This document shows, one piece after another, positions 38,629 through 63,223 of a stretch of 63,522 bases of DNA. A model generated the notes under the pieces. The model saw only the letters and a program-made list of their open reading frames with translations, ran no database searches and had not been told where the DNA came from. The stretch comes from Anaerolineae bacterium (lineage in GTDB: Bacteria; Chloroflexota; Anaerolineae; UBA4142; SHND01), in the NCBI GenBank assembly GCA_020851635.1, contig JADZCJ010000066.1:1-63522 (forward strand), in the 5' to 3' direction. Both the position numbers and the translations under genes were made by a program. Every line of letters begins with the position of its first letter. Within the stretch, counting starts at the first letter, position 1.

Positions 38629-40548
38629 ATGCGTATACCGGTTCTGGGAATCCTTTTGCTCGCCGCCCTCTTGCGGTTTTATGGGTTGGGCGACAAGAGT
38701 CTGTGGGGTGACGAGATTGCTCAGGCGGTCTGGTCCGCCTGGGACTGGCCCCAGCTGTGGCAAAAATTCCGCGCGCCTCCCGATTTCCTTTCGCATTTTG
38801 TCCTCGTGCATTTGGCGCACATGTTCGGAACCAACGAATTCTGGACGCGCCTTCCCTCTGCATTCACCAGTCTTTTGACAGTCCCACTTGCATATGTGCT
38901 GACGAAACGCTTGACCGACCGCGCGACAGCTCTGATTGCCATGCTTTTGGTGGCAGTCGCGCCCTACCAGATTTGGTATGCTCAGGAAGCCCGGATGTAT
39001 GCTGCCCTGGGTTGCTATGCCATTCTGGCATTGTACTTTATGGTCAGACTGGTGGCGCGAGATAGCGACACAGCCATTCGCGTCGGAATCGGCGGAGCGA
39101 TTCAGCATCTTGTGACCGGCGAATGGAAATTGGTCCTGGGCTTGGTGGTGGGAAATACGCTGGTGATCTATACTCACCTGTTTGGCGTGTTTCCAATTTT
39201 GGCAGAGGCGGTCATCGCTGCCGGGTTGTTGATCGCTTTGTGGATTCGCACGCGGCGGGTGACGATGCCGCGCTGGGCGGTCCCGCTGCTCATCGCCTTT
39301 GGGCTGACGATCCTGCTGGCTCTGCCCCTGGCAGGCGGGACCGTGCCCTATGTTTTGCAAGGCGGGAAACCTGCGTTGAACCAAGAGCTATTTCCTTCTC
39401 AGAGGTTCCAATTGACCCCGGCGATTGTGTGGGAGGTGCTCGGCGATATCGGACTGGGTGCGCGTGAACCCTGGCGCACAACGTTGTCTCTTGCGCTGGC
39501 GGTAATCGGGTTGGGTGTGTTGGCTGTGCGGAAACCGCGCGCCGGATGGATTGCCGCGGTCTGGCTTGTTCTGCCTTTTCTGCTTTTGGGAGTGGCGCAG
39601 CCGCGTCACACCGTCTCGGCGCGTTATTTGATTTTTCTACAGCCGGTCTATTTGATGCTGATTGCGTACGCTGTGGCGCAAGGGGCGAAAGTTCTGACGG
39701 GACGCTTGAGGGGAGAGACCAGAGACGCCAGGGCTTGGAATGTTTCACCGGTCACCGCGACGTTCGTCGCGGCGGGGCTTGTGTATTTGGGACTGATTGT
39801 CGTCCCACCATTGGTTGAACTGTATCCGCGCGCAAAATTGAACGACTGGCGCGCGCTGGCGCGATTTATTGAAGCGAATGGACGGGCAGGGGACCTGGTG
39901 TTTGGCGAACGCAACACGCCCAATATGAATGCGCTCACGTATTATTTGCCCAACCTGCTCCGATACCATACTCCGCCGACAAATGTGGAGCAGTTGGAGG
40001 GCGCGCTAAAGGAAAACCGCCGCGTCTGGTATGTTTCCGCAGGCGAATTTTTCGACCCGGAAGGCGAGGCGTGGGCTCGCGAGAATCTAGAGATCGTGCC
40101 CGTAAGCCAATGGGCTGAACCGACGCTGCGATATGCGCCCGAGAGCGCGTTCGAATACACCCAGTCGGAGCATTTGGCGACGCTGTATTTTCACGACGGG
40201 AATGTGCCCGCCGAGATTGTCTATATGGGCAGGCAGGGGTTCACCAGAGGGGAAATCGAACGCGTCAAAGTAAACCCCGGCGAGACGTTGGAAGCGGAAC
40301 TGGAGCTGAACGCGGGGAGCGGGCGGGATTTGGAATTTGAATTCTCGAGCAAAAAAGCGGCGGCGTTTGATGTGACGGTGAATGGGGCTTTGCTGGCGCA
40401 GGTGCGCGACATGGAAGCGGACAAAGGCGCAAGGACGGCGCAATGGCATCTGGCCGCAGGTGATGACACCGTTCAAGTGCGAGTGACGAACCGGAGCACA
40501 GAATTTCCACTGTTTATTATGCGGATTGCCTTGCGCGAGGCGCACTAG
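38629..40548 (+). CDS. GT39-like membrane glycosyltransferase
   Basis: This 639-residue protein has an N-terminal helix and then LGDKSLWGDEIAQAVWSAW, the acidic loop typical of GT-C transferases. About ten helices follow, including LIAMLLVAVAPYQIWYAQEARMYA, a hallmark of dolichyl-phosphate-mannose-type enzymes. The last about 230 residues are soluble and beta-rich. It likely moves a sugar from a polyprenyl phosphate carrier at the outer membrane face. It is downstream of the secreted GH51-like gene and convergent with an endonuclease/phosphatase gene. Confidence 0.82.
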   Translation: MRIPVLGILLLAALLRFYGLGDKSLWGDEIAQAVWSAWDWPQLWQKFRAPPDFLSHFVLVHLAHMFGTNEFWTRLPSAFTSLLTVPLAYVLTKRLTDRATALIAMLLVAVAPYQIWYAQEARMYAALGCYAILALYFMVRLVARDSDTAIRVGIGGAIQHLVTGEWKLVLGLVVGNTLVIYTHLFGVFPILAEAVIAAGLLIALWIRTRRVTMPRWAVPLLIAFGLTILLALPLAGGTVPYVLQGGKPALNQELFPSQRFQLTPAIVWEVLGDIGLGAREPWRTTLSLALAVIGLGVLAVRKPRAGWIAAVWLVLPFLLLGVAQPRHTVSARYLIFLQPVYLMLIAYAVAQGAKVLTGRLRGETRDARAWNVSPVTATFVAAGLVYLGLIVVPPLVELYPRAKLNDWRALARFIEANGRAGDLVFGERNTPNMNALTYYLPNLLRYHTPPTNVEQLEGALKENRRVWYVSAGEFFDPEGEAWARENLEIVPVSQWAEPTLRYAPESAFEYTQSEHLATLYFHDGNVPAEIVYMGRQGFTRGEIERVKVNPGETLEAELELNAGSGRDLEFEFSSKKAAAFDVTVNGALLAQVRDMEADKGARTAQWHLAAGDDTVQVRVTNRSTEFPLFIMRIALREAH

Positions 40549-40555
40549 CACATCA

Positions 40556-41356
40556 TTACCATCTCACCTGAATAATGAGCGCATTATGGTCGGTCAAAAA
40601 TCGTCGGAATGAGCGCGTCTGGTCCTCATCCGCAATTTCAACAATGTCGGCATGAATTTCCAGTTCGCGCGTCTTGGGCAGACGGACCAACACAAAATCA
40701 ATGGGGATTGTCCATTTGTCTTTGGAGATTAGCGGAAAGGGGCGATAGGTGGGACGCGGGTCCTCGGCGAGAGGGTCGTGCAATTGCCCGCGATTCATCA
40801 GCTCGTCATACAAGAACGTGCCGCGCGGAAAATTGAAATCGCCGCAGACGATGACCATCGCCTCATCCGGTTGTTCCTTTACCATTGCCGCCAGATGGAG
40901 GACCTGGTCGAGCTGGATACGCGACATTGCATTGTCCGGGTTCCAGACCCCCGCATAGTTGGCATGCAGATGCGTATTCATCGCGACGACCTTTTGGTTC
41001 TCGATCTCAAACTGGGACACCAGCACTCCCTTTTTGAGCACCCAATCGGCAAAGCCCGCACTCAGCAACTTGCCCCGATTCTCATACGCCACAAAGCGTT
41101 TGTTTGCAAGAGGCAGGCGCGCGGCAGTGAACAATCCACCTTTGGGCGCAAAAAAGCTTGTTTCAAACGCGCGGTGCGGGTAGTCGGGCAGTCCGCGATT
41201 CAAGAACGACACATAGGCGTTTTGTTGAATCTCTTGCAGGCAGAGAATCGAAGCGCCGAATCTGTCCAGCTGATTCGTTAAGCGCATCAAACGCCGCAAG
41301 CCCAAAAAGAGCGGCAAACCAAAGGTATTCAGACTCAAAAGAGAAAACTCTGCCAT
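40556..41356 (-). CDS. Endonuclease/exonuclease/phosphatase-family protein
   Basis: The 266-residue protein carries the EEP fold motifs in order: SLNTFGLP (Asn), LCLQEIQ (metal Glu), MNTHLHANY, VCGDFNFPRG and LTDHNALII (catalytic Asp-His). There is no signal peptide. The family includes nucleases, sphingomyelinases and inositol-phosphate phosphatases, and the substrate is not evident here. It ends the minus-strand run that starts with the PqqD-like gene. The gap to the preceding GT2 gene is 8 bases, so co-transcription is likely. Confidence 0.85.
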   Translation of the reverse strand: MAEFSLLSLNTFGLPLFLGLRRLMRLTNQLDRFGASILCLQEIQQNAYVSFLNRGLPDYPHRAFETSFFAPKGGLFTAARLPLANKRFVAYENRGKLLSAGFADWVLKKGVLVSQFEIENQKVVAMNTHLHANYAGVWNPDNAMSRIQLDQVLHLAAMVKEQPDEAMVIVCGDFNFPRGTFLYDELMNRGQLHDPLAEDPRPTYRPFPLISKDKWTIPIDFVLVRLPKTRELEIHADIVEIADEDQTRSFRRFLTDHNALIIQVRW

Positions 41357-41364
41357 CGCTGATT

Positions 41365-42051
41365 CTATCTCCGAGTCGCGCGTTTGCGAGACAAAACTGT
41401 ATTGAGGATGCGCGCAAAATCCTGCTGCCCGTCGGGATCACGCAGACTTGTATTGTTCAAATGAAGCCGTCTGCAAAGGACAACTTGCGGCACGACCACA
41501 TGCTTCAAACCAAGCGCAGTCGCGCGCTCCCACCACTCGATAAAACTCCCAACTCGCCACGCTTGTTCAAAAAAACCGACCCTCAGAAAATCTTGGCGTC
41601 TCTGTAAAAGAGTATAGTAACCGATTCCGGGCAGTGGGTCGGGCGGACAAATCACTCGCTCGCGAAAAGTCCGATCGGTCTCCGGGCTGTAAAAATTTTG
41701 CACATGCCCAAACACACATTCCGGCGCGTTTACAGACGAGAACGCGGCGAACCGATCTGCTAAGGAAGTCGCTGTCCACAAATCGTCCGCATCATGAAAG
41801 GCGAGCCATTCGCCGCGTGCGGCGCGGATTCCGCGATTGAGCGCCGTAAATATCCCCGCGTGTGCTTGGGAAAGCACGCTAATGCGCGAGTCCAGCGTGC
41901 GCGCCCGCGCAGCGGTCGCATCGGTAGAGCCGTCGTCAACGACAATGATCTCCATCGGCACATAATTCTGACACAGCACGCTTTCGAGCGCCTCGACAAT
42001 ATACGCCTCTGCATTGTAGGCGGGCATTACGACGCTCAGCAAATCACTCAA
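41365..42051 (-). CDS. GT2 glycosyltransferase
   Basis: This 228-residue GT-A enzyme has LSVVMPAYNAEAYIVEALESV, IIVVDDGSTDAT and LAFHDADDLW, the last holding the DXD motif. The frame begins at TTG, which overlaps the end of the upstream GT2 gene by 8 bases, and no ATG is available before the conserved VVMPAYN. It belongs to a run of three glycosyltransferase genes following a PqqD-like/kinase pair. The acceptor is unknown. A typical chain-elongating or decorating transferase is the simplest reading. Confidence 0.85.
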   Translation of the reverse strand: MSDLLSVVMPAYNAEAYIVEALESVLCQNYVPMEIIVVDDGSTDATAARARTLDSRISVLSQAHAGIFTALNRGIRAARGEWLAFHDADDLWTATSLADRFAAFSSVNAPECVFGHVQNFYSPETDRTFRERVICPPDPLPGIGYYTLLQRRQDFLRVGFFEQAWRVGSFIEWWERATALGLKHVVVPQVVLCRRLHLNNTSLRDPDGQQDFARILNTVLSRKRATRR

Positions 42052-42736
42052 TATACACGGCGCCCCTATTCCGTAGAATCCTGTTTCGCATAATCTGCAA
42101 CAGCTCGCGATTATAGTCGCTTGCCGATGACGGTACGGTCGAGAGATTTCCTGTGTGGAATCGCTTGGTCAAGAGCGTTTGTGGAAGAATGTGGATATTT
42201 TCGCCGGAATCCAGCAGGCGTCCGAGCCAGTCTATATCACTCGAGATGCGGTATTCGGTAGGAAAGGCGCCCAGCCGGTCAAAAAGACTCTGCCGCGCGA
42301 GCAGGTTTTCGGTCAAATACGCGGGGAACGGCTGCGCAAATAATTCGGGTTTCGCATCCGCGAGCGGAGAACCCGGCTCCAGCGCCAGATATCGCGCATA
42401 CGAAAATACGCAGGATGTTTCTGGATGGTCTCGAAGCCAGTCGTTCTGCAAGCGCAGCTTGTCCGGATGCCACAAGTCATCGCTCGACAAAAAAGCGACA
42501 GCATCCCCGCGCGCCAGGGCGAGACCCTCGTTCAACGCATTCCACATTCCGCTTCCCGATTGGCGTACATACCGCGCACGCGTATACGCACGCGCAATCT
42601 GCGGCGTTTCATCCATCGAGGGTCCGTCCACAATGATCACTTCGAACGACGCGAAGGTTTGGCTCGCCACACTTGCCAGGGCGTCGCTCAAAAAGCGAGC
42701 GCCGTTCAAGACGGGCATGATCACGCTAACCCGCAT
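42044..42736 (-). CDS. GT2 glycosyltransferase
   Basis: Starting from the ATG at 42736, the protein has 230 residues (MRVSVIMPVLNGARFL). Motifs include IIVDGPSMDETPQIA, GMWNALNEGLALARGDAVAFLSSDDLW (DXD-like) and SDIDWLGRLL. A GAGG lies about 10 bases before the ATG. The TTG upstream is less likely. It overlaps the GT4 gene's end by 11 bases and the next GT2 gene by 8, so the three are a translationally coupled block. Confidence 0.87.
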   Translation of the reverse strand: MRVSVIMPVLNGARFLSDALASVASQTFASFEVIIVDGPSMDETPQIARAYTRARYVRQSGSGMWNALNEGLALARGDAVAFLSSDDLWHPDKLRLQNDWLRDHPETSCVFSYARYLALEPGSPLADAKPELFAQPFPAYLTENLLARQSLFDRLGAFPTEYRISSDIDWLGRLLDSGENIHILPQTLLTKRFHTGNLSTVPSSASDYNRELLQIMRNRILRNRGAVYIE

Positions 42737-44156
42737 TATACGAGTCCTCAAAAGGCGTCTGGTGTGCCATCACCCGTTCCAGATACCCCTCCACACGGCC
42801 GGCGCCAAGCCCCAACTGTCTTGCCGCGACAAATTCGGCGGCAGCGAGAGCGTAACGTTTTTGCGTGCCCAGTGTCAGCCCCGCCCACATTCGGAGCAGC
42901 GGGTCCGCCGAATAGTGCATACGATAATCCAGGATGCCGCCCGCGCCTGCCGCTGATTCGAGCGGTGATGCGTTTGCAATTTGAAACTCGGCTGCGCGAG
43001 TCTGTGCACGGTCGGACACAGCAAGACTAGTTTGATACGGTCCGCCCCATTCGCCCAGGGCGCATATCAAGGCGGCAGCTCCCGGAAATCGCGCGCTGGC
43101 AAATTGCGGCGTATACTGCCGCTCGCGTTTTGATTGTTGCATCGCCATATCGTACAGCTGATGCACATCAGAGGCAACTCGGTCGGCGCCAAAATGCGCC
43201 CGCGCAAAGGCGCGAGCGTTGGCTCCCAACCGTCTCCGTTCGTCCGCGTCGTCGGCGAGTTGCCGCAACATCTCGCTGTACTCGGTCTCGTCTCGCGCAA
43301 CCATTCCTGTCTCTTGGTGTTGGACGAGATAAGGCAGTCCCCCCACCGCAAGGATGACCGGCGGCACTCCCAACCACATGGCTTGCTGCAAAATCAATTC
43401 ACTTGCCGCATAGGTGTAGCGCGCGAGGGGGTAGCCAAAGATGTCGCAAGAAGCGAGAAACTCGAGCACATGCTCCAGATAGCCAGGAAAATCGAAACGG
43501 ACGTGAGGATACTCTTTCGCCTGCCGTTTCAGGGTCTTGACGGCGGTTCCGTCTCCTGCCACGAAAAAGGTGATGTCGGGCTTGGCGCCATCGGCGCAGA
43601 GTTGGACGAAACGCGGGTGCATTTTGACAAAATCAACTGTGCCCGCGTATCCGATGCGCACACCTGTATGCGGCGGCGCGACGATTTCGTTTGTCGGCAT
43701 GAGGGTGGAATCGAGGACGACGTGCACACGGTCCGGCCGCGCCCGGAGTTGTTCCCGGAACGATGGCAAAGTCAGAGAATGCGGTGTCGCGGCAATGACC
43801 CAATCAGCAAAATTCAACAGGTCAAGGGTTGCGACCTGTGCGGGGTACTCGCCCGCGACATGCAGTGTCATGACGAGCCGCATAGGCGGCAGTGGTGACG
43901 CGAGCCACGCGTACAGTTCGGGTGTGTTCCACGCCGCGAGATGCACAATATCAGCATCGTTCAACGCGTCTGTCAGCCGAGCTGTGTCGTTGCGGTCAAT
44001 CACGTCAAACCCGGCATCCACTGCCTGGCGGACTGCGGCGGGCTCGGTCGCTCCCAGCGAGACGATGCGGTGTCTGTCGTTCAGATACGTCATCTGGGCG
44101 CTTGCCACATCGAGCGTCGAGCGTAGTGCCCCGCCGCGCACCAAGCGAGGAATCAC
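42726..44156 (-). CDS. GT4-like glycosyltransferase
   Basis: This 476-residue protein has a GT-B fold: N-terminal IPRLVRGGALRSTLDVASAQ, middle VRIGYAGTVDFVKMHPRFVQL, and the donor-binding YAASELILQQAMWLGVPPVILAVGG with Glu in the usual place. The last about 130 residues are helical with an Arg/Ala-rich end. The listed start is GTG, but the natural family start HVIPRLV lies two codons earlier. A plausible Shine-Dalgarno (AGGTG) then points to an AUC codon at 44171. No ATG exists between that point and the upstream stop. It follows the HprK-like gene by 44 bases. Confidence 0.8.
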   Translation of the reverse strand: MIPRLVRGGALRSTLDVASAQMTYLNDRHRIVSLGATEPAAVRQAVDAGFDVIDRNDTARLTDALNDADIVHLAAWNTPELYAWLASPLPPMRLVMTLHVAGEYPAQVATLDLLNFADWVIAATPHSLTLPSFREQLRARPDRVHVVLDSTLMPTNEIVAPPHTGVRIGYAGTVDFVKMHPRFVQLCADGAKPDITFFVAGDGTAVKTLKRQAKEYPHVRFDFPGYLEHVLEFLASCDIFGYPLARYTYAASELILQQAMWLGVPPVILAVGGLPYLVQHQETGMVARDETEYSEMLRQLADDADERRRLGANARAFARAHFGADRVASDVHQLYDMAMQQSKRERQYTPQFASARFPGAAALICALGEWGGPYQTSLAVSDRAQTRAAEFQIANASPLESAAGAGGILDYRMHYSADPLLRMWAGLTLGTQKRYALAAAEFVAARQLGLGAGRVEGYLERVMAHQTPFEDSYNAG

Positions 44157-44200
44157 ATGCGTGATGTTGATTAGTTCACCTGTGACAGTAACCTATACTC

Positions 44201-45268
44201 TCAGCTTGCATGGAGTGGTTGTTCGAGCAGTCGTGCGATGGTCGTCGGAATCTGCTTTATTTCGACGCCGAGTTCCAAATTCCAGCAAGGGACACGGCGC
44301 ACCAGTTCGGCGAGCCGTTTCAATACCTGCCCGTCGGCGGTTGCCAGTTGTGACATTGTGCTGGGAGCCAACGCAAGCAGTGCCGTGCGCGGTAAAGCGG
44401 GGGTGACACGGCAAGCGCGCTCGCCCGTCACGCGCGGGATCAAGATTGCGCGGAGCGGAAATTCTCTGATCAACTTGCTTGGCAGAGTCTCGTTAAAGAA
44501 AAAGATTGCCTTGCCGGACCCGCCCTTGTCCCAAAAGCGAATGTGCGACTCCAGGAACGGGAGGCGCGCTATCGTTTCGTCGCTTGCTTTACCGCTACTG
44601 TAAAGACTGTAGATGCGAGGATTGTCATCTATGCGGATCGCGCAGTAATCGTCGCCCGCAAAGAGAAGTTCCGAATCGAGACACGCGAGCGAGGTGGTAG
44701 ATTTTCCCGCACCACTTTTGCCGACCAAAAGTGCCCCGCCCGCGGGCAATCCGACGGCGGCGGCATGCACATATTGTGCGTTGAACGTGGCAAGCCAGGG
44801 AAAGAGAATCGGGCGAAGCGGCGAGGCGCGCTCGTATGCGGGGAGCGCTTGTTCGCCAAAGACACAAACATATGCGTGCCCGCGCGCTGCGTCGTACAAA
44901 AACAGTGTGCGGCTGTCGGGGTGATAGAGGGTGAACCGCGTCCCATCATTGAACCCTTGGATTTCGCCGCGCCGCAGATACGCATCAAGGTCCCAGCGCG
45001 GACGCGGCAGCATGACGCCTGTCTCGGCAATTTCCCAGAGATGAACATGCAGGTCTGCCGCGGGACGTGCCGGGGTCTCCAGATGAGCAATCGCGCGCGT
45101 AAACGCCTCTCTCAGCGCGTCTCCTGCAAACTCGAGGCGCATGATGCGACTGCCTACAAGATAATCAATCGTTCGGGTGCCCGCGCGCTCGGCGGCGCAG
45201 GCAAACGCGGCAGCTACGTCCGAGAAAAATGTGCGGATTTCGTCGGCAGCAATGGGATCAGCGCGCAT
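44201..45268 (-). CDS. HPr-kinase-like ATPase (PqqD-associated)
   Basis: The ATG at 45268 gives 355 residues. A TTG 33 bases upstream is possible. The C-terminal half has the P-loop ALLVGKSGAGKSTTSLACL and then ELLFAGDDYCAI, as in HPr kinase and PEP-carboxykinase-like folds. The N-terminal about 150 residues are unlike HPr kinase. Related kinases accompany PqqD-like proteins in lasso-peptide and other clusters, where one type phosphorylates a peptide C-terminus. No lasso protease or cyclase is found here. It overlaps the PqqD-like gene by 11 bases. Confidence 0.75.
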   Translation of the reverse strand: MRADPIAADEIRTFFSDVAAAFACAAERAGTRTIDYLVGSRIMRLEFAGDALREAFTRAIAHLETPARPAADLHVHLWEIAETGVMLPRPRWDLDAYLRRGEIQGFNDGTRFTLYHPDSRTLFLYDAARGHAYVCVFGEQALPAYERASPLRPILFPWLATFNAQYVHAAAVGLPAGGALLVGKSGAGKSTTSLACLDSELLFAGDDYCAIRIDDNPRIYSLYSSGKASDETIARLPFLESHIRFWDKGGSGKAIFFFNETLPSKLIREFPLRAILIPRVTGERACRVTPALPRTALLALAPSTMSQLATADGQVLKRLAELVRRVPCWNLELGVEIKQIPTTIARLLEQPLHAS

Positions 45269-45701
45269 CTGCCCTGGTCGCGGGCCATCCGCTTGCGTCA
45301 ACCTGGTGAATTGGGTCGAGCAGCAATAATGCCTGCATGTCGGTGTATTTCTCGATGTGCGGGACGAGATACTCGCGCCGCACTGATGGCGCTGCCCCGG
45401 GGAGGTCAGATGCGGGATTGGAGCCGCCGGTTTCAGGGACTACAAGCTGCTCTTGAAGTAATTCCGTGAGCATGTCGTCAAAATCGGCGGCAATTCGAGC
45501 CGGGTTGGCATCGTACAACAGCTGCATCCGTTCAAGAATCTGTGCGCGTGACAAGGATTGATTCAAGAGGTCCCACATTTCGGCGGCGGTGTGACTGAGA
45601 CCATAGTATGTGCCGGTCCGAAGATTCACCAATACGTATTCGTCGTCAAACTGCTCATCAATGACGTCCGGCCGGTTTGCGCGATAGTGTTGCGCGTTCA
45701 C
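45258..45701 (-). CDS. PqqD-family protein with C-terminal peptide-like tail
   Basis: The 147-residue protein starts at GTG with an ideal Shine-Dalgarno (AGGAGG, 6-base spacing). Residues 1 to about 90 form a PqqD-like RiPP-recognition winged helix, with DDEYVLVNLRTGTYYGLS, AAEMWDLLNQSLSRAQILERM and DDMLTELLQEQLV. After a Gly/Pro/Ser linker, the C-terminus (110-140) reads EYLVPHIEKYTDMQALLLLD followed by PIHQV and GWP. That tail is a compact motif I believe recurs in this family. In characterised systems PqqD domains bind a precursor peptide's leader. The partner peptide is not identified. Confidence 0.78.
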   Translation of the reverse strand: MNAQHYRANRPDVIDEQFDDEYVLVNLRTGTYYGLSHTAAEMWDLLNQSLSRAQILERMQLLYDANPARIAADFDDMLTELLQEQLVVPETGGSNPASDLPGAAPSVRREYLVPHIEKYTDMQALLLLDPIHQVDASGWPATRADAR

Positions 45702-45723
45702 AAGAAACCTCCTAAATATACGG

Positions 45724-45743
45724 GATTACAATTCGATTACAAT
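45724..45743. promoter_or_regulatory. Tandem 9-bp direct repeat before the PqqD-like gene
   Basis: GATTACAAT occurs twice, exactly 11 bases apart, on the same face of the helix and 22-42 bases before the PqqD GTG. This looks like a binding site for a regulator acting on the cassette. It is too short to be a repeat array. Confidence 0.45.
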
Positions 45744-45890
45744 ATCGGGCCCGTTCAATGCGATGCTCTGTGTGCACCCGTAATAAATAAAACAGTGTTT
45801 TTATACCTGATTGAGAATTTGGCGCAATTCTAACCATTATTTGACACGGTTGTCCTGGGCTGATTGTAACTGGATTGAAAGAAATATTTG

Positions 45891-45920
45891 TTGACTGTCA
45901 GGGGTGTCGAATGGTATCCT
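45891..45920 (+). promoter_or_regulatory. Promoter of the 68-residue gene
   Basis: TTGACT at 45891-45896, an 18-base spacer and TATCCT at 45915-45920. A second weaker candidate starts with TTGACA at 45841. The leader to the ATG at 45989 is about 60 bases and includes a run of Gs (GGGGGG). Confidence 0.5.
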
Positions 45921-45988
45921 CGCATAGTCATAAATCCGGGGGGAGACACAATCAAGCGCTGTCAAGTTGGGTCACCCAGGAGTAAAGT

Positions 45989-46195
45989 ATGGACATCGAG
46001 TTGAACGCCTTGCGGCGGGTCGCGAAAGCAGCCAAGAGATATCAGGACAAGGTCATCCAAAAACGCGCGATGCAGGTGACCTCGGACAAAGAGATTATCG
46101 CTGCTCCTAAAGAAGGGTTTGAGATTGGCTCTGCCGAATTCGAGCTCTCTGAAGCCCTGAACGCCTGGTTCCGCCTGCAAGAAACAACAAGCTAG
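45989..46195 (+). CDS. Small protein, unknown function
   Basis: This 68-residue protein has a good Shine-Dalgarno (AGGAG, 6-base spacing). A promoter upstream and a strong terminator downstream make it a self-contained unit. It is charged and probably helical at the N-terminus (ELNALRRVAKAAKRYQDKVI). A Pro/Gly break (APKEGFEIGS) and a short C-terminal helix (ELSEALNAWFRL) follow. It has no Cys, no signal peptide and no recognised family. Its place next to the divergent PqqD-like/kinase cassette makes a precursor or regulator possible, but nothing in its composition proves it. Confidence 0.7.
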   Translation: MDIELNALRRVAKAAKRYQDKVIQKRAMQVTSDKEIIAAPKEGFEIGSAEFELSEALNAWFRLQETTS

Positions 46196-46215: not shown

Positions 46216-46297
46216 GTGCTGTCAATAATACAGCACAATTCCTCAAAAGCAGAGCAGCCCTCTGCGTCAAGGCGCGTGCCGGACGCAGAGGGTTTTA
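46216..46297 (+). terminator. Hairpin plus rho-independent terminator
   Basis: The first hairpin (46216-46236) has arms GTGCTGT/ACAGCAC with a 7-base loop. The second (46258-46292) has arms CCCTCTGCGTC/GACGCAGAGGG and is followed by TTTTATTTT. The T-run overlaps the TAA of the convergent glucosaminidase-like gene. Confidence 0.85.
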
Positions 46298-47350
46298 TTT
46301 TCGCTCTCTCCGCTGATAGAATAGCCACCCCGCGCTGACAAACACAATCGCAAGTGCCACTGCGCCTGCCAAGAACCATCCCGACTGCGTGGCGGGAGCT
46401 TTAACGATTACTCGAGTCTTGAGCTCGCGTCCGACGTTGTTGCCCCCATGTTTGACCTGCCAAGCGGTGGAATAGGTCCCCGGCATGGTGGGAGCAACCA
46501 TCGTAAGCGCCCAGCGTTGGATATGCTCCGGTGGGACCAGCTGCTGCAACTCGAGTCGTGACGCGGCGCCAAAGCGGTTCTCGTTTGCGCTCACCAGGTA
46601 ATAATCCGCCGCCGGACTCCACGTGCCAAACCCCGTATTCTTGACATCGAAAAAAATTTGAAAAATCTCACCCGCGTTCACCTCAGTCGGGTCAGACTGT
46701 GCTACGATTTCCAGATCGTTGCGCGGCAAATCATACTGATACAGGTTTTCGGCATCCATCAACCGAATCAAGTCCGCAGCGTAGGTGGGCGAGGTCGCAT
46801 AGCCCGCCGCGGCGATGCGACGCGCAAATTCGCGCGGGTCGTCCACCGCCTGCATTGCGTTCGCGTAGCGGGGGGCGGTTGCGAGCAACAAACCGTGGTC
46901 ACGGAACGAATCTTCCATGCTGGCGTATTTGCGAAAACGCTCACGGCGTTCCACATATCGCACGCCGTTCCATTCTTTGGTCATTGCCCAAACCCAGCCC
47001 GTAGCAATGGGACCGAGCACGAGGTTCTCACCCGATGCTGACCCCGCCTTGATGCCAAAATAGTTGTTGGCGTCTGCAATCGGGTGCTTGCCGCGCCCTG
47101 TTTCCCACATGGCTTGAGCCAGTGTCACAGAAGCGGGCACGGTGGTGGAGCGCTGGGATTTGATGGCGAGTGGAATGGCGCGTGCCATAAAATCGGCGTC
47201 TGCCTGCGCATATGCCGGAGGAATAAAGAACAACGCAGCGAGGCAAACGCCGAGGATTGTCAAACTCAGGACTTGTACGAACATGGATTGGGTTCTGACC
47301 AAACAAGACTTGCCAATCTGCCCCGCTCGGTTACAATTCTGCCGACGCAT
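46295..47350 (-). CDS. Glucosaminidase-domain exported protein with NBR1-like Ig domain
   Basis: The ATG at 47350 gives 351 residues. An internal ATG at 47284 would start directly at the hydrophobic signal (FVQVLSLTILGVCLAALFF). After the AQA cleavage region comes a mannosyl-glycoprotein endo-beta-N-acetylglucosaminidase/FlgJ-like domain, with VTLAQAMWETGRGKHPIADANNYFGIKAG. A beta-sandwich resembling the NBR1 central domain (EIFQIFFDVKNTGFGTWSP, WQVKHGGNNVG) and a C-terminal transmembrane helix follow. It should cut peptidoglycan glycan strands at the cell surface. It is adjacent to an RDD gene. Confidence 0.82.
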   Translation of the reverse strand: MRRQNCNRAGQIGKSCLVRTQSMFVQVLSLTILGVCLAALFFIPPAYAQADADFMARAIPLAIKSQRSTTVPASVTLAQAMWETGRGKHPIADANNYFGIKAGSASGENLVLGPIATGWVWAMTKEWNGVRYVERRERFRKYASMEDSFRDHGLLLATAPRYANAMQAVDDPREFARRIAAAGYATSPTYAADLIRLMDAENLYQYDLPRNDLEIVAQSDPTEVNAGEIFQIFFDVKNTGFGTWSPAADYYLVSANENRFGAASRLELQQLVPPEHIQRWALTMVAPTMPGTYSTAWQVKHGGNNVGRELKTRVIVKAPATQSGWFLAGAVALAIVFVSAGWLFYQRRERK

Positions 47351-56284: not shown

Positions 56285-56902
56285 CTACTTGAAGGTCACG
56301 CGATTCGGGTGTGTTTTGAGTTTTTCCGCGCGCATGATCGCAATAATGTCGTCAACGGTTCTTTCCAAATGGGTGTCATGATTTGGCAGACAATAATCGA
56401 AATGGGCGAGTTCCTGCATTTCCAGGGCGGCACGGTCCAGACGAACCCTGAGCGCTGTCTCGCTTTCGGTCTTGCGCGCCCGCAAGCGCGTTTCCAGTTC
56501 CTGAAGGGTCGAATACAAAAAGATGAAAATCGCGCCGTCCACTCTGGTCCGAATAGTCGCAGCGCCCTGCACGTCAATTCGCATCAGCACATCCGTCCCC
56601 CGCGCCAGCGCCGCTTCAATTTCGCTGCGCGAATTGCCATACAGGTTGCCATACACTTTGGCGTGTTCGAGAAACTCGCCGCGCTCGAGTTTGGTTTGAA
56701 ATTCCTCCTGACTGGCGAAATGATAGTCAATGCCTTCGACTTCGGAGCTGCGACGCTCGCGTGTGGTCGTCGTCACCAGAAAATGAAATGGCATGTTACG
56801 CGCCTGCATGCGCTTGAGGGTCGCGTCTTTGCCTACGCCGCTCGGGCCCGAGACGACGACGAGGAGAGGTGAGGGAGTGGGCAGAGCGATAAATTGGGTC
56901 AT
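56285..56902 (-). CDS. gmk: Guanylate kinase-like protein
   Basis: The 205-residue enzyme should convert GMP to GDP. It shows the P-loop LVVVSGPSGVGKDATLKRM, HFLVTTTTRERRSSEVEGIDYHF and YGNLYGNSRSEIEAAL, then VLMRIDVQGAATI. The GKDA form of the P-loop (rather than GKST) is what I recall from Chloroflexota guanylate kinases. Length and order are standard. It overlaps the nucleotide-sugar dehydrogenase gene by 4 bases, an unusual partner suggesting a shared operon. Confidence 0.9.
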   Translation of the reverse strand: MTQFIALPTPSPLLVVVSGPSGVGKDATLKRMQARNMPFHFLVTTTTRERRSSEVEGIDYHFASQEEFQTKLERGEFLEHAKVYGNLYGNSRSEIEAALARGTDVLMRIDVQGAATIRTRVDGAIFIFLYSTLQELETRLRARKTESETALRVRLDRAALEMQELAHFDYCLPNHDTHLERTVDDIIAIMRAEKLKTHPNRVTFK

Positions 56903-58305
56903 GCCGAACCGTTCGCTCCCGGCATGGGGGCATGCGCCGGCATCGGCGCGCCAAGACGAAGCACACTGGCGCTGCCCTGCAGGTGCGCGGTCACACTGGT
57001 CGTGTCAACCACGCGCCTCGCATTTGCCAACACCATGCCATAGTCCACGATCTTGTGTCCTGTCACGATCACCACAACATCCGCCCCCCTTAATGTCTCG
57101 GCGGTCAACGGCACCCCTTGCAGCACGTGCGGTTTGCGATGAAACACATTATCGCCGATTTGAAACCGAGTCACATAGGGGTCGTGAAACGAGACGTTGG
57201 CGTGATGCGCGATCAACAATTCAATGATGCGTTCGGCAGGCGAATTGCGCGCATCGTCAATGTCACGTTTGAACGCGACGCCGAGCACCAGCACATTGGC
57301 TCCATCGAGCGCCCTGCCGTCCCGGTTTGCAGCTTCAGTGATGAGATCTACTACGTGAAAGGGCATGGATTGGTTAACTTCGGCTGCCAGCTCGATGAAT
57401 TTGGTGTAGAAATCAAACTCGCGCGCTTTCCAAGAGAGATAATACGGGTCTACCGGGATGCAGTGCCCTCCCACCCCGGCTCCCGGATAAAACGGCATAA
57501 AACCGAACGGCTTGGTCCTGGCAGCATCTATCACTTCCCAAATGTTAATGTCCATTCGCTCGCACAAGAGCGCGAGCTCATTCACCAGCGCAATCTTTAC
57601 GCTGCGGACAATATTTTCGAGCAGTTTGGTCATTTCCGCGGCGCGCGGTGAAGAAACGAGATGTACCTGCGGCGTCAGCGCAACGAGCAGCTTGTGCGCC
57701 AACTCGGTCGAGCGCGGCGTAAGCCCACCCAGGACCTTGGGCATGTTGTGTGCGCTCCAATCCTTGTTGCCGGGGTCAATCCGTTCCGGAGAGAATGCCA
57801 AATAGAAATCCTGACCTGCTTTTAGCCCACTCTTTTCCAGGATGGGCAAAACAAACTCTTCGGTCGTGCCGGGGTAAGTGGTGCTCTGCAAAATCACCAG
57901 TTGTCCCGCGCGCAGATTGCGTGCGATGCTTTCGCTCGCGCTCTGAATCATGCCGAGGTCGGGCGCCTTCATGCGGTCAAACGGCGTTGGCACACAAATA
58001 AAGATAACATCCGCGTCCTTCAAGACCTGTTCGTTGGTTGTTGCGCTCAGCGTTTTGTTCTGCACCAATTGGGTGACGAGTGCGGTTTCCACATCGGGGA
58101 TATACGATTCGCCGCGTTGGATCGCTTCGACTTTGCGCGCATCCAAATCCATCCCGATGGCGCCAAAGCCCGCTTCGGCGAATGCCACGACCAGCGGCAG
58201 ACCTACGTATCCAATGCCGATGACGGTGATGCGCGCCGTGCGTTCTCGAATTTTCTGTTCCAAAACCTGATCGAGCGATAGAGACAAGGTAGTCATAGGG
58301 TTCAT
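56899..58305 (-). CDS. Nucleotide-sugar dehydrogenase (WecC/UDP-ManNAc-type)
   Basis: The ATG at 58305 (MNPMTTLSLS) gives 468 residues and overlaps the WecA-like gene by 4 bases. A longer upstream frame of about 100 codons is shadow sequence. Motifs are ITVIGIGYVGLPLVVAFAEAGF for NAD binding, LVILQSTTYPGTTEEFVLP and the catalytic cysteine in GAGVGGHCIPVDPYYLS. It oxidises a UDP-sugar C6 to the uronate, probably UDP-ManNAc or UDP-GlcNAc. It belongs to the surface-polysaccharide block. Confidence 0.92.
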   Translation of the reverse strand: MNPMTTLSLSLDQVLEQKIRERTARITVIGIGYVGLPLVVAFAEAGFGAIGMDLDARKVEAIQRGESYIPDVETALVTQLVQNKTLSATTNEQVLKDADVIFICVPTPFDRMKAPDLGMIQSASESIARNLRAGQLVILQSTTYPGTTEEFVLPILEKSGLKAGQDFYLAFSPERIDPGNKDWSAHNMPKVLGGLTPRSTELAHKLLVALTPQVHLVSSPRAAEMTKLLENIVRSVKIALVNELALLCERMDINIWEVIDAARTKPFGFMPFYPGAGVGGHCIPVDPYYLSWKAREFDFYTKFIELAAEVNQSMPFHVVDLITEAANRDGRALDGANVLVLGVAFKRDIDDARNSPAERIIELLIAHHANVSFHDPYVTRFQIGDNVFHRKPHVLQGVPLTAETLRGADVVVIVTGHKIVDYGMVLANARRVVDTTSVTAHLQGSASVLRLGAPMPAHAPMPGANGSA

Positions 58306-59300
58306 CCGGGCGTTTTCCTTTCCAGGAGGATAATAATGACTAGACCAAGAGCGAGCGCCAAGCCAAACACCAGATAAGCGAGCGATGGGGGCAAATATTG
58401 CACGCCAAACCCGAGGGCGCCTGCAACCAGACAGAGACCATAAATGGTGAGCACCGCCTGTCGCTGGTTCATGCCCAGTCTTGCAAGACGATGTGAGAGA
58501 TGGTCCTTGCCGGCAGTGGTCCAGGGATTCACATGACGACGCAGGCGCGAGACGGTTACCAGCGTCATATCGAGGACGGGGATTCCCAACACGAGCACGG
58601 GAATCATCCACGTGACGGCGTCCGGCTGTCCGGGAAAACGCAGCTTAAGTCCAACGGCGGCGAGCATGAAACCCAAAAATAAACTTCCCGCGTCGCCCAT
58701 AAAGATGCGCGCGGGGTTGAAATTATACACCAAGAACCCGAGCGAAGCCCCTAACAGGGCGGCGGCGAACGGCGCGACCAGAATCTGGCCGTTTGTGATG
58801 CTCAAAAGCAGAAACCACCCGGCAGCGATAGCTGCAACACCGCCCGAAAGCCCGTCCATATTGTCCAAAAAATTCACCGCGTTGGTGATTCCAATCACCC
58901 ACGCGGCGGTTATGAAAATGTTCAAGAATGGATTTCGCAGAAACTCTACCTGGACGCCCGTCACGATCAGAATAAGAATGGCAAACAGCTGTCCGCCTAA
59001 TTTGATGACAGGTCGCAGCGTTTGCCAATCGTCCCAGATGCCGAGAAACGAAACCCATGTTGCCCCAAGCAAAATGCCGATCACCTGGTTCACATAAAAT
59101 GCATCGCTAAACAGCAGCAGCGCGCCGACGAACGCGAGATAGATCGCCACGCCGCCGAGCAAGGGAACGGGTGACGTGTGCAGCTTGCGCGCGCTCGGCC
59201 GGTCTATGATGCCCAAACGAAAAGCCACGCGACGCGCGAGGGGAGTGGCGCCCATCGCAAGTAAAAGCGAGGCGAAAAAGATGAGCAAAAGGGTTGGCAT
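58302..59300 (-). CDS. WecA/MraY-family polyprenyl-phosphate sugar-phosphate transferase
   Basis: The 332-residue protein has about ten helices and the family metal and lipid motifs. VNFLDNMDGLSGGVAAIAAG and ARIFMGDAGSLFLGFMLA are central, and DHLSHRLARLGMNQRQAV is near the C-terminus. It loads a sugar phosphate, probably GlcNAc-1-P, onto undecaprenyl phosphate to start glycan synthesis. It is overlapped by the sugar dehydrogenase gene downstream and preceded by the O-antigen ligase-like gene. MraY itself is less likely because the DHLSH motif is the WecA form. Confidence 0.9.
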   Translation of the reverse strand: MPTLLLIFFASLLLAMGATPLARRVAFRLGIIDRPSARKLHTSPVPLLGGVAIYLAFVGALLLFSDAFYVNQVIGILLGATWVSFLGIWDDWQTLRPVIKLGGQLFAILILIVTGVQVEFLRNPFLNIFITAAWVIGITNAVNFLDNMDGLSGGVAAIAAGWFLLLSITNGQILVAPFAAALLGASLGFLVYNFNPARIFMGDAGSLFLGFMLAAVGLKLRFPGQPDAVTWMIPVLVLGIPVLDMTLVTVSRLRRHVNPWTTAGKDHLSHRLARLGMNQRQAVLTIYGLCLVAGALGFGVQYLPPSLAYLVFGLALALGLVIIILLERKTPG

Positions 59301-59317: not shown

Positions 59318-62300
59318 CTAACCCGCGCCGCCCAGTTTTTCCGCCAATTTGCGCAGCGCGCTGACCAGCGCAAAATCTTGCGCGTTTGCGCCCCGCAAAA
59401 GCTCTTTCAGTTGGCTTGACGCCTGTTCCGTTTTCCCGCTCTGGATTTCGGTCACAACCGTATTCAACTGTGCCCAGAATGTCTTGTCCGCATCGGGCGC
59501 CAGTTGCTGTGCCAACGCGATTTGTTGCGCGACGGACGAGAGCTGGTCGGTGGCGATGAGCAAAAGCGCAATGTTTCTTTGCGCCGCATAATCATCGGGC
59601 TTGAGCGCGGCGACCTTTTGATACGCGGGCAAGGCAAAACCGGGCTGCCCCCGCGCCAACCATTGTCGCGCCACTTCTGTCGCGAGCGCGGGATCGGTCG
59701 GGGACGCGCTCGCGGCTTCGAGGGCTTTGTTCAATTCAACGAGTGTAAAGCGAAAATCCTGATAGCGCTGGCGAGTTGTGCTGTCACTTGCCGGGATATT
59801 GGTGAGCGCGCTGTCAATCGCTGTAATTGCGTCCGGCACGCGTCCCAGTTTCGAGTAGAAATTCGCGAGGACGGTGTATGTTTCGAGGGTTGGATTCGAG
59901 ACAGCTGCCTGGGTGAGAAGGGTCTCGAACCGGGCTGCCTCAGTCGCCGCGATCGCTTCATCTGCCGCGCGGGTCAGTTCGCTGACGGCGAGCCCCAATC
60001 CCTCCGGACGAAAAACATCGCCGCACTGTGGCGCATATCGGATCGCGTCCAGCGCATCCATCGTGCGCTCGCGCCAGTGGGTTTCTGCCTGTGCGCGCAC
60101 GGCAAATGTAAAGCAAAAGGTCGGGTCAACCTGGAGCGAGTGAAAGATTAGTTCGTGCGCTCGCTCGCGTTCGGCATCCGCTTCTTGTATATTGCCCTGG
60201 TCTGCCAGGACTTGAGAATACTCGAGCAGCGCCTGGGCATGTTGGTTGTAAAGATGCGCCGTGTTGGGACTGAGGCGATGAGCATGGTCAAAATACACCA
60301 TCGCCTGCTTGTAGGCGTCAATTTTTACTGCCGGGTCGTTCGACAGCGCGCCGCGCGCCTGCGCCAGACGCGCCAAATTCGCGGAATGATCGGTGTTGTA
60401 AGGATTGATGGCGCGGGCGCGTAATAACGCCTCTTGCGCGCGATCCAGTGCGTCCATCTGCGCCGCCACATCCGTTGCGGACTTGGCTTGGTCCAAATAC
60501 GCGCGCCCCAGAAACAGATCGTAATAGTCCTGTTGGGGCTGCATTGCGAGCGCGCGCTGGAATAATTGAACGGCAGTCGCGGTGTTTTCGCCGGTGAGCG
60601 AAGCTGCCTGCTTGTAGAGCATGTCGGCGCGAATCGGTTCGATATTGGTGGCGAAAATCAACAAAAAAGCAACGATCGCGAGGACGGGAGCGACCACATA
60701 GTTTGTCGTCCGATTGACCCACGCCGCAGGCAAGGTCTCGTCAAAGAGCATGGTGATGGCGCACATCACCGCCACGAGCAGGGTAAAGACGCTAAAGAGA
60801 ATGACCGCCGTGAGCAGCGCGTCAAGCACCGTCGCTCCCACCGTGGCGATCAAGAGAACGTGATAAAAGACAAGCCCGGAAAAAATGGCGAACGCGAGTA
60901 CGACAAACAGAATACATGCCACGAACCAATCCCGCGCGCCCAAGCGAAATGTGTGACCCCATTCGCTCGCGCAAATGCCGAGTCCGACCAGCAAAGTTGT
61001 TACAAACAGCCACAACATGGTGTACGAGGTCATTAACCCCGTCGTGGTGTTTTTGCCCGTCAGCGCGCTGATCACAACACTCAGCCCGCTCACCGCTTGT
61101 CCGCCCGCAGTGCCGAGATTGTTCGTGGTGATATAGTCATAGCCCATCACGGCGAGCACGAATCCAACCAGAAAGGCATATAGAATCAAGGGGGCGCTGG
61201 AAACACGACGTGGCGCGCTCTCGGACTTGGATTTGGCGGTTGGAGCAGTGACGGCTGACACGCGTTTGCGCTTGCCCACAGCCGCGGCGGGCGCCGGTTC
61301 CGCAGTCGGCTTGTTCTCGATTGGCGGAGCGGATTCGGTATCTGCGCCCATTTGCACGCGTCCCGTCCCGATCACCACAAAGACTGCGGCAAAAAACCAG
61401 AAATAGAGGCGGGAGGAAACAATCGCAATCCCGAAATGGATTTCGATAAAGTGCGCGACAAAGAGAGCGACAAGCGCGACAAGCCAAAGCGCATTCGGCG
61501 ATCGAGTCAGACTAAAAGGACCCGCGCGAAGCGCTACCGCGACCAGATACACAAACATACCCAGGATCATGCCGCCGGGCAATGCCACACCGATAAACTC
61601 CCATCCAAACACCAGACCAAAGACCGCGGCGAGCAAGAGACCCCCTCCGAACCACAATCCGAGAAACAGATTGCGGGCGCGCAACGAGGGCATCAAGCCG
61701 AGCCATTTCATTGCCAAATACAAGACGACCAAAAACAAGATATTTTCGGCAACAAAGCCCAAGAGACCGGTCGTTACGAGCGCGTCAAACGTTTCATTGT
61801 GTGACCGATCGGGCGTGGCATTACGTGATTCGAGATTGCCGAGTTCGGGCGGGTAATACCGGTTGTAGGAAACATACATCGTTTCCGGACCGTAACCGAC
61901 GAGAGGGCGAAGCGCGTTGAATGGATCGTCCCCGTTGACCGGCGACCAGAGTGGTTCATGCAGAACGACGAGTTGGAGCGCACCCTGCCAGATCAACACA
62001 CGCACGCGCCCCGTGCCGCCCTCCAACTCAAATACGCGTCCCATGCGTCCGAAATATGGAAGTTGACGCAAGGACGCGAACGGCGAATCGGGGATATTCA
62101 ATAGCGCGAGAAACACGAACAAGAGCGCCGCCGCGCCGACCGCGCCCAGCGCGAGCTTGCGCGCGCCGCGCACCAGCGCCAAGAGCACGCCGAACGTAAA
62201 CAGTCCGCCCAGAATGCCGAGCAGAGGACCGCGACTTTGTGTAAAAAGCAGGGCGATGAACTGTACCGCGAGCAGCGAGGCGTATAGCGCGGGCAAAAGG

Positions 62301-63223
62301 AAATCGGCAGCGCGCTGCTTGAATACAAAAGCTGCGCCCCACCAGAGCAGAATAACGGCGAACGAGAGCAAGAGCGCGAGATTGAATGCGCCGGATGCCA
62401 GGTTCAATTGTTCGGGCGTCACAATACCGCTATAGTTTGATTCGATGATGGATTTGGCGCCGAGGTCAAAAGTCAACCCCCAGATGGCTGCCATGCCCAG
62501 AAAAGTGACGACGGCGGCGAGATAAACGAGGGGGGGGCGCGCTGTGCGCACGGCGGCGCGTTTGCCCGTTTGCAACAGCCGCGCCAGCGCGAGCGGGATC
62601 GTCAAGATCAAGAACGCACCGATAAAAATAGAATTGCCCAAACTGGAAGCGACGCGCGTGGTGACGTCACCGACCCAAGGCAGGGGGTCGAGGTAATAGT
62701 GTTGAATGATTGCGTAAAAAGCAACCGGAAAACTCGCGACGAGCGCGATGGTGATCGCGCGCTCCACATCGGCGCGCGTTTTGATTCGACTGGCGGCGAG
62801 AAAAAAAATGACGAGGTAAGCGGAAAAGGTATACAAGCCCTGCAGACGTTGATACGAGCCAAAAAAGGAGACGGTGGGCGAGAGCGAAAGCAGAGTGCTG
62901 AGGACATATGCCGCGAACAAGAGCGCGACAGGAATCGTCAGCGGATTTTCCTCCGATACGCTCGCTAACCACGCGCGCGCGCGCTGAAGCGGCGGCAGCA
63001 CATTCGCACGCGTAGGGCGTCCACCGCGTCGCCGCTCCGAACGCAGAATGAGCCACATTGCGCCCATGGCGAGCGCCAGGGTGCGAATCAGGGTGATTTT
63101 GTCGGGTTCAAAGACGCGACTGGAATAGATGTTGAAATAAAGCGGCGCAATGATGAGCGCAATGAGCCAGCACGCCTGGATGAATTTTTCGGAAAACAGG
63201 GCAAGTCGAGAAGGTGGATACAT
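59318..63223 (-). CDS. O-antigen ligase-like membrane protein with TPR repeats
   Basis: This 1301-residue protein has about a dozen helices in the first half. The Wzy_C/O-antigen ligase region has RVLIWQGALQLVV and RSHNETFDALVTTGLLGFV (about residues 410-495). A Lys/Ala/Pro-rich loop separates a second set of helices (about 680-880). From about residue 900 to the end there are tandem tetratricopeptide-like helices (AVQLFQRALAMQPQQDYYDLFLGRAYLDQA). It probably joins polymerised glycan to a carrier or polymerises it at the cell surface. A TATAGA-type -10 lies about 25 bases before the ATG. Confidence 0.85.
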   Translation of the reverse strand: MYPPSRLALFSEKFIQACWLIALIIAPLYFNIYSSRVFEPDKITLIRTLALAMGAMWLILRSERRRGGRPTRANVLPPLQRARAWLASVSEENPLTIPVALLFAAYVLSTLLSLSPTVSFFGSYQRLQGLYTFSAYLVIFFLAASRIKTRADVERAITIALVASFPVAFYAIIQHYYLDPLPWVGDVTTRVASSLGNSIFIGAFLILTIPLALARLLQTGKRAAVRTARPPLVYLAAVVTFLGMAAIWGLTFDLGAKSIIESNYSGIVTPEQLNLASGAFNLALLLSFAVILLWWGAAFVFKQRAADFLLPALYASLLAVQFIALLFTQSRGPLLGILGGLFTFGVLLALVRGARKLALGAVGAAALLFVFLALLNIPDSPFASLRQLPYFGRMGRVFELEGGTGRVRVLIWQGALQLVVLHEPLWSPVNGDDPFNALRPLVGYGPETMYVSYNRYYPPELGNLESRNATPDRSHNETFDALVTTGLLGFVAENILFLVVLYLAMKWLGLMPSLRARNLFLGLWFGGGLLLAAVFGLVFGWEFIGVALPGGMILGMFVYLVAVALRAGPFSLTRSPNALWLVALVALFVAHFIEIHFGIAIVSSRLYFWFFAAVFVVIGTGRVQMGADTESAPPIENKPTAEPAPAAAVGKRKRVSAVTAPTAKSKSESAPRRVSSAPLILYAFLVGFVLAVMGYDYITTNNLGTAGGQAVSGLSVVISALTGKNTTTGLMTSYTMLWLFVTTLLVGLGICASEWGHTFRLGARDWFVACILFVVLAFAIFSGLVFYHVLLIATVGATVLDALLTAVILFSVFTLLVAVMCAITMLFDETLPAAWVNRTTNYVVAPVLAIVAFLLIFATNIEPIRADMLYKQAASLTGENTATAVQLFQRALAMQPQQDYYDLFLGRAYLDQAKSATDVAAQMDALDRAQEALLRARAINPYNTDHSANLARLAQARGALSNDPAVKIDAYKQAMVYFDHAHRLSPNTAHLYNQHAQALLEYSQVLADQGNIQEADAERERAHELIFHSLQVDPTFCFTFAVRAQAETHWRERTMDALDAIRYAPQCGDVFRPEGLGLAVSELTRAADEAIAATEAARFETLLTQAAVSNPTLETYTVLANFYSKLGRVPDAITAIDSALTNIPASDSTTRQRYQDFRFTLVELNKALEAASASPTDPALATEVARQWLARGQPGFALPAYQKVAALKPDDYAAQRNIALLLIATDQLSSVAQQIALAQQLAPDADKTFWAQLNTVVTEIQSGKTEQASSQLKELLRGANAQDFALVSALRKLAEKLGGAG

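Follow-up and report, generated by a model that had tools for sequence, protein, structure and literature searches.

Which molecule do a PqqD-type recognition protein, a kinase and three glycosyltransferases (GTs) act on when they are encoded together? This question is raised by a 63,522-nucleotide stretch of DNA, contig JADZCJ010000066.1 of an Anaerolineae bacterium (Chloroflexota; assembly GCA_020851635.1), which is hereafter called the window. RiPP recognition elements (RREs) are a standard handle for finding the pathways of ribosomally synthesized and post-translationally modified peptides (RiPPs), for which a separate precursor peptide is normally required. The PqqD/RRE-domain protein of the window (147 aa; 45258–45701, minus strand; PF05402, E = 1.7e-14) carries a fused, conserved C-terminal tail at nucleotides 45282–45371, which a preliminary description of this DNA did not mention and which is the most informative part of the protein. 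We consider, with a probability of roughly 0.55, that this protein is an RRE bearing a cis-fused leader, and that it gathers the kinase, a nucleoside triphosphate (NTP) transferase, the GTs and an exporter on a phospho-glyco product.

The tail follows the consensus [FYW]xxPx[LIVMF]xKY[TS]DMxDLLLLDPIHxVxxxGWP and falls into two parts on the minus strand, the leader-like segment YLVPHIEKYT (residues 111–120; 45342–45371) with the motif [FYW]xxPx[LIVMF], and the invariant segment DMQALLLLDPIHQVDASGWP (residues 121–140; 45282–45341). In an alignment of 77 proteins, P114, D121, M122, D129, P130, H132, V134, G138, W139 and P140 are invariant, while position 111 is F, Y or W and the last motif position hydrophobic in every sequence (77/77 each). 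All ten close relatives in related genomes (10/10) carry the tail; they were collected by whole-protein BLAST, a choice independent of the tail. The tail recurs in the source genome, beyond the PqqD domain, in a paralogous PqqD–kinase pair encoded on contig C96, where it reads KYTDMQ[AS]LLLLDPIHxVD..GWP. When 84,980 species genomes were scanned, 195 stretches matched; a relative is encoded by 181 of them, and 80 loci were kept. Part of the observed conservation is built in, because tail peptides served as the scan patterns; GWP and the aromatic position lay outside these patterns. Read in open reading frames (ORFs), the kept loci carry the tail and span more than a dozen phyla, with members in Chloroflexota, Cyanobacteria, Nitrospirota, Bacteroidota, Acidobacteria, delta-, beta- and gamma-proteobacterial metagenome-assembled genomes (MAGs), Verrucomicrobia, Lentisphaerae, Planctomycetes, Ignavibacteria, Gemmatimonadetes, Sumerlaeota, Bipolaricaulota, Aminicenantes, Actinobacteria and Bacillota MAGs. 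The family is patchy within Chloroflexota, where 10 of 400 genomes have a match to its profile (E ≤ 1e-15), and the match covers only the domain part in three of these. A tail profile run over 35,394 ORFs gave 121 tails, all fused to a PqqD domain (121/121), and no stand-alone tail peptide among these ORFs. No viral copies were found, and the tail sequence appears in no paper of the literature searched.

Two further observations concern the tail genes themselves. The tail ends of four loci (L060, L078, L093 and L124) repeat the GWP element or almost do so, as in SGWPNVDDKKGWPTRNPD and AAGWPMPKGETAAWPAPK, which suggests that GWP is a functional unit. PqqD-tail genes with an internal TGA occur in G005 (L043, G005:C229), G393 and G399 (L197, L198), and may reflect a pseudogene, a frameshift or an assembly error.

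A profile of the window PqqD matched TbiB1 in the PDB at 6.8e-18. The AlphaFold 2 (AF2) model consists of an RRE fold and a low-confidence linker, after which the predicted local distance difference test score (pLDDT) rises to 96 for residues 111–120, with a strand at 116–119, and is about 59 for residues 121–147, so that the invariant segment is not ordered alone. Among solved structures, this model is closest to the crystal structures of TbiB1 and TfuB1, two lasso RREs in complex with their leaders (Z = 14.0, 13.6 and 11.8; the value of 14.0 is that to 5v1v, TbiB1 with leader). Discrete lasso RREs recognise the leader motif [Y/W]xxPx[L/V/I/A/F/Y] (PMC13381572), which Bsf-type leaders carry as YxxPxL at −17 to −12 (PMC10368454), and the first ten residues of the tail match this motif of lasso leaders and of linear polyphosphorylated peptide (LPP) leaders. 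The simplest reading of the model is that the first part of the tail sits in the RRE groove in cis and leaves the invariant remainder free. The earlier suggestion that PqqD presents a peptide holds in substance, with the difference that this peptide belongs to the PqqD chain. When a tree was built from the PqqD domain without the tail, 94 tail-bearing sequences lay on one side of a branch and 35 tail-less ones on the other; the tail state changes once on this tree, against an average of 31 changes in shuffles, none of which was as low (0/500).

Neighbouring genes were counted at those 64 distinct loci that had 6 kb or more of downstream sequence, where they were called and clustered by a simple in-house script and the families were checked by Pfam. 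GT2 enzymes are present in 60 of the 64 loci at about 2.5 per locus, an NTP_transf_5 (PF14907) nucleotidyltransferase in 44, an HprK-like kinase in 43 and an MsbA-type ABC exporter in 36, and 58 loci encode the kinase or the nucleotidyltransferase. Two orders are common, namely PqqD, kinase, GTs, ABC and NTP5, and, in Bacteroidota and Nitrospirota, PqqD, NTP5, ABC and GTs. The set is also present on a cyanobacterial plasmid, where the RefSeq names read PqqD family protein, nucleotidyltransferase, HPr kinase, methyltransferase, GT-A and ABC transporter. These neighbours (GT2, kinase, NTP5 and ABC) are mostly absent around control PqqDs without a tail. The window copy has the kinase and three GTs beside PqqD; the NTP transferase and exporter are not adjacent, and a related exporter/nucleotidyltransferase pair lies on contig C46 of the same genome. 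No asparagine-synthetase-like cyclase is among the ORFs of the window cassette, and the source genome gave no match to PF13471, the lasso B2 transglutaminase-like leader protease. The preliminary description had envisaged a distinct system, and the recurrence of PqqD, kinase and GTs across phyla without lasso protease or cyclase bears this out. The source genome also encodes a second type of PqqD fusion, in which five PqqD-domain proteins (L008–L012; two on contig C46, one on C44 and two in tandem on C124) have a twin-arginine-like signal within the chain, SRRQFLKRAGIVAGAA...APTPAHAQ, and after it a C-terminus rich in cysteine, for example ICCVCNDGFFDVQPGCADCATVCAAHAGVNACDPVTSCTN; this type could be an RRE plus an exported core.

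The kinase (366 aa; 44201–45301, minus strand) is assigned to the RiPP peptide-kinase type of HprK-like proteins by its AF2 fold and a BsfK-type catalytic motif. Its P-loop, GKSGAGKS, is intact, as had been noted before. Its match to HPr_kinase_C (1e-3) is below the Pfam cut-off, and it is not HprK proper, with which it shares only the fold (PF07475, 19.1 of 33.3 bits; TIGR00679, 20.7 of 240 bits; both below cut-off). The AF2 model (pLDDT 94) has the PEPCK/HprK fold (Z = 17.6 and 14.1); the structure search places PEPCK above HprK, two proteins of shared fold, whereas the sequence profile favours HprK. The residues H179-G194-G197-G199-K200-S201-D217-D218 correspond with identical spacing to the catalytic motif of the lasso peptide kinase BsfK, whose importance was shown by mutation (PMC10368454). 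This motif is kept with exact spacing in 42 of 47 kinase relatives, and in nearly all of them by alignment.

A search seeded with the kinase rather than PqqD gave ten strong matches, seven of which lie beside a tail-bearing PqqD; weaker relatives (G074, G101, G124, G143 and G049) adjoin tail-less PqqDs. At the tail-less PqqD–kinase loci, a separate leader-motif peptide of 39–55 aa is encoded in between, such as MNQSTPAKKTYQTPTLTKHQRLQKVTLGTVSRPGNGDWLLPGN, while the same test at tail-bearing loci yielded only unconvincing stand-alone YxxPxL ORFs, and hence no convincing separate precursor of the LPP type. The free peptides resemble the tail in the leader motif only, not in the remainder. LPP-like clusters composed of a tail-less PqqD, a 39–55-aa YxxPxL peptide and an HprK-like kinase occur in Chloroflexota (L177, 8149–8280; L179, 7392–7517; L185, 7208–7327; and L178), and in L177 a B12-binding radical SAM gene adjoins the kinase. 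At L003 (2000–9100), the second PqqD–kinase copy adjoins a conserved adenylate-cyclase-like/ATPase/anti-sigma-factor signalling block that is shared with G004 (L049, G004:C78).

We propose that the [FYW]xxPx[LIVMF]xKY part of the tail binds in cis to the RRE groove, just as free RiPP leaders dock there in trans, and that this docking would hold DMxDLLLLDPIHxVxxxGWP out to partner enzymes. The candidate partners are the peptide-kinase-type HprK, the PF14907 nucleotidyltransferase and the MsbA-like exporter, which form the accessory set of paeninodin-type lasso and LPP clusters, together with several GTs. By analogy with pseudomycoidin, the kinase and nucleotidyltransferase would add a phosphate and then hexoses, the GTs would extend the product and the ABC protein would export it, so that a phosphorylated and glycosylated product would be assembled on the tail or on an acceptor brought to it. 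In a narrower version, which we regard as rather doubtful, the tail would be a genetically encoded carrier: a phosphoglycan would be started and extended on DM...DPIHxVxxxGWP, the base of which is held in cis by the RRE, and the MsbA-like transporter would export either the product or the conjugate.

Several observations weigh against the fused-leader reading. Docking was deduced from pLDDT and secondary structure, and the exact pairing is inferred. The branch that parts tail-bearing from tail-less PqqDs has a support of 73.9 in the Shimodaira–Hasegawa-like approximate likelihood ratio test (SH-aLRT); a single origin of the tail would be compatible with this tree, being neither shown nor contradicted by it. 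The kinase is absent from about a third of the loci. The tail is near-invariant and very short past its docked part, unlike most RiPP cores, and no leader peptidase is recognisable: a motif scan of the genes of tail-bearing loci, made with no accompanying profile search, found none of the SpI-like type. Residue T/S120 is replaced by a residue without hydroxyl in 8 of 86 tails, and all eight belong to kinase-bearing loci, while the hydroxyl is present in all tails from loci where no kinase was called (27/27; Fisher p = 0.05, in the wrong direction); at L116, a kinase is present with a tail that lacks any Ser or Thr. Thr/Ser120 is thereby disfavoured as a universal kinase target, which leaves two options: a different residue is the acceptor, or the kinase has another target and the tail is a built-in activator.

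The second of these options leads to an alternative that we hold to be possible but less probable than a fused leader serving product assembly. Here the tail is no substrate but a leader mimic, which keeps on or recruits leader-dependent enzymes that now act on a glycan, lipid or sugar phosphate, as in an exopolysaccharide or surface-glycan locus with borrowed RiPP enzymes. The near-invariance of the tail, the want of a recognisable peptidase and the lack of a Ser/Thr common to all tails suit this idea, as do the prominence of GT2 as the most constant neighbour, the variation of GT content at the same site in three congeners, as in glycan loci, and the site in G005 that has kinase and GT without PqqD; moreover, BsfB1 accelerates its kinase (PMC10368454). 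It is opposed by the activity of characterised kinases of the HprK-like type, which phosphorylate peptides (PMC8498205, PMC13381572, PMC10368454), and by conservation that runs 20 residues past the docked strand, more than docking requires. We consider it improbable that the locus is a true LPP or lasso cluster, with its precursor and peptidase encoded at another genomic position and with the tail as a pseudo-leader that the real precursor displaces. The enzyme set in common with LPP and paeninodin clusters would fit such a cluster, but the PF13471 protease is absent from the genome, tail-bearing loci have no convincing separate precursor, and their PqqDs part from the tail-less ones on the tree.

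The preliminary description had offered another peptide, the 68-aa product of the divergent gene at 45989–46195 (plus strand), for presentation by PqqD and modification by the kinase and GTs. The gene adjoins the operon and is transcribed away from it. Where that description had spoken of a promoter and a terminator, the gene is preceded by a promoter-like, sigma-70-like site (45891–45920, TTGACT-18-TATCCT) and followed by an 11-bp perfect stem plus TTTTATTTT (46258–46301); sigma-70-like sites number 5 in the 750 bp scanned, with 0.4 expected, and the stem was read straight from the sequence because its 13-nt loop exceeds the length allowed by the scanner. However, a single homologue of the 68-aa protein is encoded in each of the six congeneric genomes that were sampled (G000–G005), including G001, where no PqqD match exists. 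The glucosaminidase gene, the 68-aa gene and the endonuclease/phosphatase gene are contiguous and cassette-free in G001, G002 and G004, the 68-aa gene is absent at the PqqD loci of other taxa, and its product has no YxxPxL motif. It was hence rejected as the PqqD partner, a role that we regard as highly improbable, and is a flanking genus-core gene rather than a member of the cassette; its weak Asn_synthase match (0.041, below cut-off) was discounted. Gene order in relatives, named beforehand as the refuting check, thus told against the small gene and not against the GTs (GT2 in 60/64 loci). The PqqD cassette occupies the site beside the 68-aa gene in the window genome and G003, the same site in G005 holds a kinase and two other genes, one of them a GT, without PqqD, and the GT content varies among these three genomes. 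Being present, absent or variable at one site across congeners, the cassette is, as far as gene order tells, a block, either mobile or variable, that was inserted next to a gene of the genus core.

All five minus-strand ORFs of the cassette were confirmed where they had been placed, overlapping or tightly packed. Downstream of PqqD and the kinase are a GT-B (GT4-like) enzyme (42726–44156; PF00534, Glycos_transf_1, 2e-16) and two GT-A (GT2) enzymes (42044–42751, PF00535, Glycos_transf_2, 9.3e-26; and 41365–42051, PF00535, 5.7e-29), which are 58% and 60% identical to their respective orthologues in L042, a locus syntenic with the window cassette. Judged by profile matches, the PqqD domain and the three GTs are secure assignments, and the kinase is a distant HprK relative. 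The endonuclease/exonuclease/phosphatase-family gene (40556–41356, minus strand), which adjoins the 68-aa gene in cassette-free congeners, is the insertion flank outside the cassette. Genes for a UDP-glucose/GDP-mannose dehydrogenase (56899–58611), an O-antigen-ligase-like/tetratricopeptide repeat (TPR) protein (59318–63223) and a PMT-like protein (38629–40548) lie within about 18 kb of the cassette and make a surface-glycan context possible. No Rfam elements were found in the window between 40 and 48 kb.

An RRE carrying its own leader-like ligand would escape precursor-based searches. The tail family suggests either that phospho-glycopeptides are built on the invariant tail, or that RiPP enzymes dependent on a leader have been redirected to glycans. 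In both cases, the part that HprK-like kinases and PF14907 nucleotidyltransferases play in surface-glycan loci can be tested directly, because a defined stretch of about 30 residues is now the candidate substrate or activator. If the tail is indeed a carrier, this would be a way of assembling glycans on a peptide carrier, conserved in different phyla.

The cassette is not described in the papers found via PqqD, HprK, GT and nucleotidyltransferase, and the nearest described system is that of the LPPs (Popov et al. 2026, PMC13381572). Both have a discrete RRE, an HprK-like kinase, a YxxPx-type RRE ligand, GT surroundings and no cyclase, and the NTP transferase and MsbA-like exporter of LPP clusters have counterparts in 44/64 and 36/64 loci of the tail family, though not beside the window copy. 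The LPP system, however, has a separate, C-terminally variable precursor with the motif YxxPxVLxHQxIxFETxxS as well as a leader peptidase of the SpI-like type, and its described range is limited to Bacillota (PMC13381572), whereas the ligand of the tail cassette is fused to the RRE and its tail is invariant, no such peptidase was recognised in the motif scan, and the cassette extends over more than a dozen phyla. TbiB1 and TfuB1 (PDB 5v1v, 5v1u and 6jx3) share the fold and expected leader-binding mode with the window PqqD, but their leader is a separate chain. Lasso clusters of the paeninodin, pseudomycoidin and Bsf type (B1, K, N and D genes) share the RRE fold, the leader motif and the complete kinase catalytic motif, and with the family also the nucleotidyltransferase and ABC exporter; the tail cassette differs from them by lacking the B2 protease, cyclase C and separate precursor and by adding GTs. 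The HPr-rel-A system (NCBIfam TIGR04352/TIGR04353) likewise places a PqqD-type protein beside an HprK-related kinase, but membership was rejected, as the window proteins score far below the model cut-offs (16.5 of 200 and 19.6 of 35 bits); the window PqqD is also below the cut-offs of the named lasso-PqqD subfamilies. A phosphoglycosylated precedent is provided by pseudomycoidin, to which a phosphate and then hexoses are added (PMC8498205). Taken together, the comparison points to the tail cassette as an undescribed relative of the phosphorylated and glycosylated peptide (RiPP) pathways.

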